From contig NZ_PNEC01000031.1 of the NCBI RefSeq assembly GCF_005886345.1, forward strand, positions 1 to 64,000: a stretch of DNA of 64,000 nucleotides, read 5' to 3'. This DNA comes from Pseudoalteromonas phenolica. Its GTDB lineage: Bacteria; Pseudomonadota; Gammaproteobacteria; Enterobacterales; Alteromonadaceae. Both the position numbers and the translations under genes were made by a program. How positions within the stretch are numbered: the stretch's first letter is position 1; every line of letters begins with the position of its first letter. Below are positions 1,992 through 5,983 of this stretch, piece by piece. The notes beneath the pieces were generated by a model, which was given only the letters and a program-made list of their open reading frames with translations, was not told the origin of the DNA and made no database searches.

Positions 1992-3035
1992 ATGCAAAAT
2001 ATCTCACGATTCATTTCAAAAAATTTATTTCATCACAAAGATTTAACAGGTTATTTCGAGCCTGTTTTACAAGTTTTCAAACCATCGTGGAGAAGCGGTT
2101 ATTTTCGGGCACAAGTTAAAAGCATTCGAGTTCTCTGCGAAAATGCACTCAAAATAACCCTAAAACCAGAGAGAAAATGGCCAATACACACAGCCGGCCA
2201 GCACATTTCTTTGACAACAGAGCAACAAGGTCGGCTGATTTCACGGGTATTCACCATTGCGTCTGGGGCGAAAAAATTAAAAGAAACGGGTTTGATTGAT
2301 CTGGTGATCCGCACTCATGATAAGGGTAACTTCACTCCGTATCTTGGTGAGTTAGCTATGAACAGCTGGGTTAATATTTCCGAGCCAATGGGAGAATTTA
2401 TATTTGATGAGCAAAGCAATCATACGACATTGTTAGCGGGCGGTTCTGGCATTACCCCATTCATTGCAATGTTGGATGACTTACAAGCAAATACGCAGAA
2501 TCACATTCATTTATTGTATTACGCAAAGCCTAACGGGCATTTAATGGTGGAAGTTTTAGAGAAGTTTATGACTGCTCTTCCTAATTTTAGTTTTGAGCTA
2601 CTTCATCGCAGTGGACATGGTTCATTTACCAAATATGTTTCAGTAGAACATACCGAAGAGCTTCTCGTCTGTGGACCAGAAGAAATGTTCGTTGAAGCTG
2701 GAAAATTCTGTAAGTCACGTCAAATACCCATCAGAGCAGAACATTTTCAAGCAATTAGGCCAACTCAATCTGTAAATGAAGCTGCAAGATTCAAGGTAAA
2801 ACTCAATCATGGTGACTTAGAAGTCAGTAACCAAGATTCGTTATTAAGTGAATTTCAATCGCACAATAAGCCTGTGACATATGGCTGTGGAATGGGTATT
2901 TGTCATCAATGTCAGTGTCTAAAAAAGAAAGGTATTGTCCGAGATATACGTGATGGTAGTTTGTCAGACAATAGCGAGGAGCTGATCCAATTGTGTGTAA
3001 CTCAAGCCGTGACAGATTTGGAGTTAGAATTATGA
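1992..3035 (+). CDS. Ferredoxin reductase-type electron transfer protein for desaturase
   Basis: A 347-residue flavin reductase with a C-terminal plant-type [2Fe-2S] ferredoxin domain. An FAD-binding barrel (about residues 35-140, with the RVFTIAS flavin motif) is followed by an NAD(P)-binding domain (LLAGGSGITPF, about 150-155). The ferredoxin domain has the cluster cysteines C299, C304, C307 and C335 (CX4CX2CX27C). The protein would pass electrons from NAD(P)H to the acyl desaturase encoded next, as the DesC/DesB pair does in Pseudomonas. The desaturase ATG overlaps this stop codon (ATGA), so the two are translationally coupled. Two FabR-like operators precede the gene. Confidence 0.85.
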   Translation: MQNISRFISKNLFHHKDLTGYFEPVLQVFKPSWRSGYFRAQVKSIRVLCENALKITLKPERKWPIHTAGQHISLTTEQQGRLISRVFTIASGAKKLKETGLIDLVIRTHDKGNFTPYLGELAMNSWVNISEPMGEFIFDEQSNHTTLLAGGSGITPFIAMLDDLQANTQNHIHLLYYAKPNGHLMVEVLEKFMTALPNFSFELLHRSGHGSFTKYVSVEHTEELLVCGPEEMFVEAGKFCKSRQIPIRAEHFQAIRPTQSVNEAARFKVKLNHGDLEVSNQDSLLSEFQSHNKPVTYGCGMGICHQCQCLKKKGIVRDIRDGSLSDNSEELIQLCVTQAVTDLELEL

Positions 3036-4084
3036 AACAAGTGAATTTTGACCAGCTTGCTTTGCAACTTGATGAAGTAAAACAACAAGTGCAAACAAAA
3101 GTCGGACAAGAAGATGCGAACTATATTCGTAAAGTCATTGTCTGGCAGAGAGTATATGAGTGGAGCGGCAGAATTTTATTGATGTTAGGATTCTGGCAGC
3201 CGTTACTTTGGGTCGTGGGGGTCTTAAGTCTTGCAATAGGCAAGATTTTAGACAATATGGAAATTGGTCATAACGTGATGCATGGTCAATATGACTGGAT
3301 GAACGACAAGTTCATTAATTCTCGTGCCTATGAATGGGATATTGCCTGTGATGGTAGTAGTTGGAACAGGGTACATAACTACGAACATCACACTTATACC
3401 AATATAATCGGTAAAGACAGAGACTTTGGTTATGGCCTTTTGAGGTTATCGAATGACTTCAGGTGGCGTGTGAAAAACCTTTGGCAGTTTATTACTTACG
3501 TTTTACTGAGTGTGCTTTTTCAGTGGGGCGTTTCATATCATGAAATGGCGGCGGAGCGTGTTTTCTTTGGTAAAAAGAAAGACAACCGAGATAATAAAGT
3601 ATCACACGCAGAGCTTAAAAAACGCTTCTTTAGTAAAGGGGCTAAGCAACTGGTTAAAGATTATATCATTTTTCCACTTCTTGCAGGGCCGCTCTTTCTA
3701 TGGGTTTTTTGTGGTAACTTGATAGCAAATTTATTAAGAAACTTATGGACTTCAACCATTATTTTTTGCGGTCATTTTACGGAGCATGTTCATACTTTCA
3801 CAGAAGAAGAGTGTAAAAATGAAAGTAAAGGGCAGTGGTATTATCGACAAGCTTTGGGCTCATCAAACCTGAAAGGTCGCACATGGTTTCACATTTTAAC
3901 AGGGCATTTAAGCTTTCAGATTGAACATCATTTGTTTCCAGACTTACCGGCGAAGCGCTACCCAGAAATAGCCCCGAAAGTACAACAAATCTTTCAGCAG
4001 CACGGTATTCACTACAATACGGGCGGATTTTGGCGCCAATACGGCTCAGTCTTAAAACGTATTATTCGATATTCATTTCCTTAG
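3032..4084 (+). CDS. Membrane fatty-acid (acyl-CoA-type) desaturase
   Basis: A 350-residue di-iron membrane desaturase. The three histidine boxes are present: HNVMH (80-84), HNYEHH (115-120) and QIEHH (296-300), plus extra histidines at 247-253. Hydrophobic segments lie near 46-70, 150-165 and 210-235. The ATG at 3032 overlaps the reductase stop codon; an in-frame ATG at 2993 lies inside the reductase gene and lacks a reason to be used. The enzyme introduces a double bond into saturated acyl chains, using electrons from the upstream ferredoxin reductase. The regiospecificity (delta-9 is common in such operons) cannot be read from the sequence. Confidence 0.88.
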   Translation: MKQVNFDQLALQLDEVKQQVQTKVGQEDANYIRKVIVWQRVYEWSGRILLMLGFWQPLLWVVGVLSLAIGKILDNMEIGHNVMHGQYDWMNDKFINSRAYEWDIACDGSSWNRVHNYEHHTYTNIIGKDRDFGYGLLRLSNDFRWRVKNLWQFITYVLLSVLFQWGVSYHEMAAERVFFGKKKDNRDNKVSHAELKKRFFSKGAKQLVKDYIIFPLLAGPLFLWVFCGNLIANLLRNLWTSTIIFCGHFTEHVHTFTEEECKNESKGQWYYRQALGSSNLKGRTWFHILTGHLSFQIEHHLFPDLPAKRYPEIAPKVQQIFQQHGIHYNTGGFWRQYGSVLKRIIRYSFP

Positions 4085-4091
4085 AAAAGCG

Positions 4092-4122
4092 GCTCCCTCA
4101 GTTAAAATTTGGCTGAGGGAGA
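4092..4122 (+). terminator. Terminator after the desaturase
   Basis: CTCCCTCAG (4093-4101) pairs with CTGAGGGAG (4113-4121) around an 11-base loop, followed by ATTTATCTTT. It lies between convergent genes and may act in both directions. Confidence 0.7.
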
Positions 4123-4129
4123 TTTATCT

Positions 4130-4981
4130 TTAATACTCCACACGTTCTAGTTTATCAGATGGGATCTCTGGAAATTTACCATCTATCCATTTTTGTTTTG
4201 CTTGTTCTATTTTTTCTTTACTAAACGATACAAAGTTCCAATGAATATAAGGCACATGCTGCCATTTCTCTCCACCCAGTAAAATAACACGGCTGTTTTT
4301 AGCAAACTTAATCGTTGTTTCTGTATCTTCTAATAATACAAGCTCATTTGGATAGATAGTCTCGTCATTGACCATGACTTGACCATATAAAACATAGAGT
4401 GCGGTTTCAAAGTCTGGGTTGGGTACGTCAATTGTTTTACCTTCAGCACCAATTACATCTAGATAAAACATTTCTGAATAGGTTTTGATTGGTGATCTTA
4501 AACCATAGGCATTACCCGCTATGAGGCGGGTCATAACGCCATCTTTAACTATTTTTGGCAAGGCTTCTCGCTTCACATGCGTGAATGTAGGCACAATATC
4601 TTCATGTTGTGCTGGTAAGGCAATCCAAGATTGTAAGCCGTTGAGAGCGTGTTCGCTTGCCCTTGTTTCGACGCTTTCTCTTTCAGAGTGGGTAATACCT
4701 GAACCAGCTGTCATCCAATTCACATCACCTGGTGCGATTTCTAAGTTATTACCCAATGAATCTCTATGTAAAATTTTACCTTCAATTAAATAAGTCAAAG
4801 TAGAAAGGCCGATGTGCGGATGCGGTTTGACATCAATTCCTTCACCTTGAGAAAAAGTAGTCGGGCCCATATGGTCAAAAAATATAAATGGCCCAACCAT
4901 GCGTTTTTTCATGTGGGGAAGTAAACGTTTTACGTTTAGGCCACCAATATCATGTTCTGTTGCGGATAATTTTAATGCCAT
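4130..4981 (-). CDS. Pirin family protein
   Basis: A 283-residue bicupin of the pirin family. The N-terminal cupin carries the metal-binding signature HPHIGLSTLTYLIEG and GDVNWMTAGSGITHSE, including the conserved histidines and glutamate that bind iron. The C-terminal cupin (about 175-270) is more diverged, as is usual. Some bacterial pirins have quercetinase activity and others modulate metabolic enzymes, so no single reaction can be assigned. The gene is monocistronic and converges on the desaturase operon. Confidence 0.85.
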   Translation of the reverse strand: MALKLSATEHDIGGLNVKRLLPHMKKRMVGPFIFFDHMGPTTFSQGEGIDVKPHPHIGLSTLTYLIEGKILHRDSLGNNLEIAPGDVNWMTAGSGITHSERESVETRASEHALNGLQSWIALPAQHEDIVPTFTHVKREALPKIVKDGVMTRLIAGNAYGLRSPIKTYSEMFYLDVIGAEGKTIDVPNPDFETALYVLYGQVMVNDETIYPNELVLLEDTETTIKFAKNSRVILLGGEKWQHVPYIHWNFVSFSKEKIEQAKQKWIDGKFPEIPSDKLERVEY

Positions 4982-5141
4982 TAGTAACTCAAGTCAGTTG
5001 ATTAGCTATTTACAGCATAGGTGCAAAATACACATTTAATCTATTCAAAAATTTTGATTAGAGTGTTCAAAATTTATAGCTGTTTAACATTTTCTGCCCA
5101 ACATAGACTGGAGTTATTGAAATGACTTAAGGTGAATACAG

Positions 5142-5936
5142 ATGAAAAATGTTTTAACCTGAGCTCTGGTTAAGAGATTTAGTAGTCTAGCGATATTGAA
5201 TTAGTAAATTTGTTCAACTCTGCAGCCGGAAACTTTTAGGGCTAACAAGGCGAATTTACGAGTCAATAGCTAGTCTATTGCGAGTAAATTCAACGCAGAA
5301 AGCATTAAAAGTAGCCGCTGGTGATAGATTTATTACCCAAAACTCAGGTTATAAATTAACACATCAATTAATCATGACGTTGGTAATTCTTATATTTTGA
5401 GCAGTGAGTTTGTCGACAGATTATCAAATAAGTTTGAGTTAACAGTTACACATCGCGATCTAGTTAATGAGCCGCTGGAACACTTGAACCAAACAGAAAT
5501 GCTTGCTTGGATGACGCCTGAAGCGCAGAGAAACAGTGAACAAAAATCTTTGGCTAATTTATCTGATAATTTGATCAAAGAAGTGCAGCAAAGCGATGTT
5601 TTGGTGATTGGCTTGCCTATGTATAACTTTGGTGTGCCTTCACAGTTTAAAGCCTGGATGGATAGGATCGCCAGAGCGGGTGTGACGTTTAAATTCACAG
5701 AACAAGGCCCTGTTGGCCTGATAGCAAATAAGAAGGTGATAGTGTTAGCTGCACGTGGCGGAATTTATGCATGTACTGATAATGACTCATAAACTACACA
5801 TATTAAATCGTTTTTTGCGCTTTTAGGGATCACAGACATTGAGTTCATTTATGCTGAGGGTTTGAATATGCCTAACAAAGATAAGGAGATGGCATTTGCT
5901 AGAGAGAATATGGAAGACATTATCGTAAATTTATGA
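5142..5936 (+). pseudogene. azoR-like FMN-dependent NADH-azoreductase, disrupted
   Basis: The body (about 5352-5936) is a flavodoxin-fold azoreductase: LVIGLPMYNFGVPSQFKAW, RAGVTFKFTEQGPVGL, AARGGIYA and the C-terminal FIYAEG are family hallmarks. Two lesions break it. First, the natural start seems to be ATG 5142 with AAGGTG just upstream; its frame reads MKNVL, the usual azoreductase N-terminus, and then enters a palindromic insert (about 5154-5354). Homology resumes as INTSINHDVGNS. Second, a TAA at 5790-5792 interrupts the frame, which then continues as THIKSFFALLGITDIEF to the natural stop at 5936. Intact homologues are about 200 residues long. The gene is almost certainly non-functional; the exact insert borders are uncertain. 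Confidence 0.8.
5154..5354. mobile_element. MITE-like palindromic insertion in azoR-like gene
   Basis: About 200 bases flanked by inverted repeats: TAACCTGAGCTCTGGTTAAG near 5155-5174, and the reverse complement of TAACCTGAGTTTTGGGTAAT near 5333-5352. About 23 of 30 bases match when the repeats are extended. Inside, 5223-5320 forms a large imperfect palindrome centred near 5272 (perfect inner arms CAATAG and CTATTG). There is no open frame for a transposase. These are the features of a non-autonomous miniature inverted-repeat element. It lies between codon 5 and the rest of the azoreductase-like gene. Confidence 0.65.
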
Positions 5937-5983
5937 TTAAAAAGTAGAGCAGCGTACTTTATATTGCAGCTCTACTTTCTTGC

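Follow-up and report, generated by a model that had tools for sequence, protein, structure and literature searches.

Bacterial MITEs are usually seen as narrow-range remnants of one insertion sequence (IS). Among the small repeats of bacterial genomes, REP/REPIN units carry the tags GTAG or CGTC, and the Correia/NEMIS and ERIC elements presumably differ in sequence from the element reported here. MITECca01 is an IS982-derived MITE of a Cardinium endosymbiont, as given in the available portion of PMC9769881. Cutting of Correia transcripts by RNase III is reported in the available part of PMC10969869, and MITEs interrupt key genes in Thiomargarita according to the available part of PMC4853749. 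The element described below lies in the window (the whole stretch of DNA analysed, 64,000 nucleotides), which comes from a Pseudoalteromonas genome of 4.57 Mb in 164 contigs; no description of its family was found in searches of the open-access literature. The point of interest is the core that this element shares with others under different ends, not its insertion into azoR.

The azoR gene is interrupted by a MITE

The sequence-only reading had proposed an azoreductase gene that opens with MKNVL at 5142 and is cut by a MITE of about 200 bases at codon 5, as well as by a separate in-frame stop. This arrangement is confirmed (Table 1). Translation from the ATG yields MKNVLT and ends at TGA 5160-5162, and MKNVL corresponds to the N-terminus of an intact orthologue of azoR (MKNVLLINSSLNG, locus L024). 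The insert is a multicopy MITE with the predicted terminal inverted repeats (30-nt arms at 5152-5181 and 5325-5354, 77% complementary) and with the predicted internal palindrome, found as a structured core of 104 nt. Its length is corrected to 193 bp; it lies in codons 5-6, ends in ACCTGAG...CTCAGGT, and no reading frame runs through it. Homology to azoR picks up again at ATT 5355 (INTSINHDVGNS), with an in-frame TAA directly before it, and beyond the second in-frame stop, TAA 5790-5792, the azoR-like sequence carries on, broken, to 5936. Pfam Flavodoxin_2 recognises the body of the gene at E 3e-32 and its tail weakly, and the best NCBIfam names for the fragment are those of FMN-dependent NADH-azoreductase, at scores below their cut-offs. 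Taken alone, the broken azoR is an ordinary kind of gene loss.

Table 1 Features of the azoR locus and of its MITE copy in the window
Feature	Position	Strand	Evidence
Pirin-family neighbour gene, open; yardstick for dN/dS	4130..4981	-	
azoR 5' remnant (MKNVL)	5142..5156	+	Read from sequence; aligned to intact orthologue
Left target flank GTTTTA; of the expected TANNTA only TA kept	5151..5156	+	
MITE, 193 bp	5157..5349	+	Repeated in genome; ends scored; missing from sister record
Left terminal inverted repeat	5157..5181	+	
Structured core, 104 nt (model R1)	5220..5323	+	111.7 bits, E 4.9e-22
Right terminal inverted repeat	5325..5349	+	
Right target flank TATAAA, contains in-frame TAA 5352-5354	5350..5355	+	
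azoR body up to in-frame stop 5790-5792	5355..5792	+	Pfam/NCBIfam matches
azoR tail after stop	5793..5936	+	Flavodoxin_2 E 9e-4, below cut-off

Among named records the closest azoR is that of P. phenolica S3663, with 88% identity in the best segment. By blastn this record aligns to positions 2160-5156 and 5354-5916 of the window, and the gap between the two blocks measures 2 bases in S3663 versus 197 in the window; the insertion site is present there without the element. The azoR of S3663 (L108, 3000-3556) is itself broken, in its start codon, by three in-frame stops and by a short in-frame deletion. None of these lesions was seen in the azoR of the window, which argues for parallel loss of the gene in two species. 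The dN/dS of azoR between the window and P. phenolica is moderately raised, at 0.32 over 187 codons (NG86); yardsticks for the same species pair and method are 0.18 for the pirin gene and 0.054 for a desaturase, and ten pairs of intact relatives, five of them with dS > 1, give 0.066-0.165. The pattern fits either two independent losses after long constraint or a need for the gene that was lost before the split.

We give somewhat less than an even chance to the alternative that azoR was killed first, by the stop at 5790 or by another lesion, and that the MITE entered a gene already dead. The unshared lesions of the sister gene mean that the need for azoR may have lapsed ahead of both events, but nothing in the window orders the stop and the element, and a dN/dS of 0.32 permits either order.

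The insertion had also been called recent, a view that the window copy does not support: its identity reaches 85.5% with the nearest copy and 85.0% with the consensus of copies from the window's genome and P. phenolica, and its target duplication, which the sister alignment had been expected to locate, is not intact. The two 6-bp flanks differ (Table 1); the right one is in register with TACTAATAAATACATC of the sister, 12 of 16 bases being alike by eye. Ten other copies in the window's genome range from 81.3 to 98.5% identity to the consensus, two of them more diverged than the window copy, whose own distance could also reflect a diverged source copy. Only seven changes are private to the window copy and the dN/dS of azoR is only moderately raised, both of which speak against a great age of the insertion.

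The element family and its candidate mover

The element is repeated in its genome. We found 17 matches, resolved by eye into 13 copies, of which at least two are internally deleted (L013 and L016). The family occurs in 27 of the 60 genomes searched (own included) and in 2 of 25 genera. When 41 loci were scored for their ends, with at most four mismatches at each, 35 passed, among them three with weak left ends (L094, L098 and L102), while six others (L013, L016, L100, L101, L103 and L104) were excluded because their ends were poor. The family ends are ACCTGA..TCAGGT, and the target duplication is a 6-bp TANNTA. For ends set at ACC...GGT, a perfect 6-bp duplication flanks 17 of the 35 copies, compared with 6.1% of mismatched flank pairs; duplications of 3-5 or 7-10 bp are perfect in only 0-2 of the 35. 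TANNTA itself is found in 23 of 35 left flanks and in 23 of 35 right flanks, compared with 0.6% of window positions. Short, non-coding and multicopy, with terminal inverted repeats and a target site duplication, the family is a MITE. In 24 of 35 copies the gene to the left is directed towards the element, a manual count that is not decisive. A script that is blind to already broken genes found no copy within a reading frame that stays open to its left and right.

Longer forms of the element also occur. In Pseudoalteromonas an extra ~47-50 bp lie in the 5' arm (L008-L011 in the window's own genome, L289 in P. phenolica), and in another genus (G228, L286-L288) an extra ~47-50 bp lie in the terminal loop. 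Both inserts contain a similar CTAC..CATCCAT..GG stretch, which may be another small mobile repeat.

At 15 contig ends of the window's genome (L188-L202) the sequence breaks off inside an element whose end is TAACCTGAGCTGCGC, as would be explained by a multicopy IS breaking the assembly, and TANNTA adjoins 12 of these 15 ends. The MITE shares 22 of 29 and 20 of 29 bases with the IS ends. Stretches of 972-1005 bp between similar ends were found in other genomes (L204, L209, L210 and L216), and two of three frames translated there pass the cut-off of the IS982 transposase family NCBIfam NF033520, the third being a fragment. One such transposase sequence used as a query gave zero matches in the window's genome, where the copies were perhaps lost at contig ends. 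Since the MITE shares its target with an IS982-type element present in many copies in this genome, and has similar ends, we infer that an IS982-family transposase moves the MITE in trans.

The core was also sought inside autonomous IS982 elements; 34 IS-bearing loci gave four weak matches (30.5-36.5 bits; two overlapping loci, one genome), and this candidate was rejected.

A structured core with a strand bias

Conservation along the element is uneven. Among copies from 19 genomes/species, positions 91-150 keep a pairwise identity of 0.89-0.98 and the ends 0.79-0.94, compared with only 0.49-0.61 at positions 31-70. The core carries the fixed loop motifs CAAGGC, AATAG/CTATT and AACGC. Its structure was derived from an alignment of 27 copies that was built from sequence alone, for which RNAalifold predicts 54 pairs, 21 of them with a double change. 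When a named 52-pair structure is evaluated on the same copies, double changes occur in 19 pairs, against a mean of 6.0 after shuffling and 3-9 in slid controls. The element strand folds better than its complement in 26 of the 27 copies, by a mean of 10.0 kcal/mol, although the copies share ancestry and their counts are thus not independent trials. The pair cells of these copies hold 104 G-U versus 10 A-C, and of the pairs commonest as Watson-Crick, 21 show any G-U and six any A-C. Such a bias suggests that one strand is under selection, with which RNA and single-stranded DNA would both be compatible. In the window copy the fold beats its shuffles at z -3.6 (z -6.5 in a better kept copy), and the strand bias is nearly gone (-0.6 kcal/mol).

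Rfam searches of the window stretch and nine other loci gave no match at the gathering score, with zero matches in six loci at E up to 0.1 and in three at E up to 0.5; near the window's element a match to snoR28 (5880-5938) falls below the gathering score. The core site of integron attC is GTTRRRY, and attC was set aside for the core by eye.

The same observations could stem from an ordinary IS982-derived MITE, whose core would owe its conservation to descent and to palindrome mechanics (arm-to-arm copying) with no selected fold. IS982-derived MITEs are known and stable folds are common in MITE transcripts, as far as the available parts of PMC9769881 and PMC10969869 go, and copies within a genome are kin. 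We consider this explanation the less likely one. The contrast between positions 91-150 and 31-70 among species copies argues against it, as do the unequal arms, CAAGGC against AACGC, that are kept in distant copies. The excess of G-U over A-C is not expected from arm copying in double-stranded DNA, and the core is found again under unrelated ends.

Distribution of the core

Covariance model R1 of the core has hits in 71 of the 394 order genomes searched, the window's own among them; these 71 represent 19 of 114 genera. Of 29 order loci that were fetched (L257-L285), 24 measure 192-196 bp between the best-fitting ACCTGA-type ends; a perfect 6-bp duplication is present in 14 of the 29, and the core strand folds better in 26. 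Across 36 model-aligned copies, double changes occur in 29 of 33 pairs and covariation reaches 0.503 versus 0.182 after shuffling, in an alignment that, like the others fitted to a model, leans towards the structure.

In a sample of the class, core matches were found in 24 of 369 genomes, 22 of them outside the order. By our reading of ten class loci (L290-L299), IS982-type ends are present in a single one; seven carry different ends, GGAACCTCTGA, GGGGGTGTTAACAATT and GGGACCCTGGTCGAAA being examples, and two have no clear ends. In other genomes the core sits in elements of 158-161 bp with unrelated ends. A second model, R2, matches 71 of 398 phylum genomes at 1e-6, of which, by manual count, 39 lie outside the class; 31 of these belong to one family, many of them incomplete bins. 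Among 23 primary copies outside the training of R2, AAG[AG]C is kept in 20 and AACGC in 19, each where it is expected, letters that R2 itself scores. Folding favours the core strand in 31 of the 32 rows of alignment A6 and in 25 of the 27 of A7.

The association of core and ends was also approached from the ends alone in four core-bearing genomes. All 17 distinct elements of 158-161 bp fetched in this way carry the core, at 37-81 bits; 4 of them (L324, L325, L359 and L372) are training rows of R2 and 13 are new, and copies within one genome are related. Eleven loci with other bracket lengths, or with no bracket near the core, gave six matches, mostly weak (32-45 bits), and five without a match. 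R2 run on 79 named loci that had been fetched through azoR (490,763 bases) gave one match, in Thalassotalea mangrovi (39.6 bits, E 1e-5). A sequence-only model recovers 22 of 23 phylum loci, all but L320, with E values no worse than 2.4e-4. It also recovers all 14 loci that had been retrieved through their ends, although one of these, L325, had served to train it. As a model of this kind recovers distant loci, the likeness of the cores exceeds palindromy. For two of the other end types the bracketed loci yielded no autonomous partner; one bracket of 1238 bp holds a frame of 243 aa.

Two further arrangements were seen. L306, L317, L319, L323 and L380 each hold a back-to-back pair of cores, one on either strand, separated by 0-7 nt, with nearly equal spacing in G087 and G932. 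In G778, elements of 292 bp (L336, L342 and L349) have ends nearly as those of the 161-bp elements and weak core matches of 34-36 bits.

Discussion

The reading that we favour, at a probability of about 0.72, is that of an IS982-type MITE mobilised in trans and built round a widespread structured core whose fold on one strand is maintained by selection. A non-autonomous element, probably moved by an IS982-family transposase, entered azoR in codons 5-6 at a TANNTA-like site and ended translation of the gene after six residues. Lineages would differ in the terminal repeats under which they carry the core, which might form a functional hairpin in the RNA of read-through transcripts or a fold of single-stranded DNA in transposition or replication. 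A further proposal, which we put forward tentatively and hold to be somewhat short of even odds, is that the core is a distinct one-strand-fold module across much of Pseudomonadota, repeatedly refitted with unrelated IS ends and riding the transposase of its host. That the stretch is intergenic and adjoins a functional but shorter azoR with an internal start is very improbable, for although a frame of 131 aa is open from TTG 5397 to 5792, it has neither the N-terminus nor the tail, MKNVL fits the start of intact orthologues, and both gene parts stand together in P. phenolica.

If the favoured reading of a shared core is true, with one core, at least three sets of ends and compensatory change throughout proteobacteria, then selection keeps the interior of the element and the ends are exchangeable. 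The 104-nt fold with its fixed loop motifs offers a concrete object for testing the roles of MITE folds.

Comparison with known systems

Several described elements resemble this one in part. As characterised in the available portion of PMC9769881, MITECca01 is alike in its size of ~240 bp, IS982-type inverted repeats, lack of a transposase, many copies and mostly intergenic placement; it differs in being confined to one strain lineage and in keeping sequence of its parent IS, whereas the family here extends over a GTDB order and its core does not come from the IS982 elements seen. QMITE1 of Coxiella burnetii, in the available part of PMC5896051, likewise has variable ends, a conserved core and a long palindromic transcript, but is ~400 bp long, and QMITE2 of the same species has relatives in alphaproteobacteria and Lacimicrobium (same source); the likeness to the QMITEs is one of descriptions, not of sequence comparison. 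Correia/NEMIS and ERIC are also MITEs that lie near genes and whose transcripts fold, according to the accessible parts of PMC10969869 and PMC3733652. REP/REPIN sequences, in the available parts of PMC3733652 (see also PMC3116915), are palindromic repeats moved in trans, and some of the cores here stand in inverted pairs; REPs measure 20-40 bp (PMC3733652, as available), in contrast to the elements here, of 158-196 bp with long terminal repeats.
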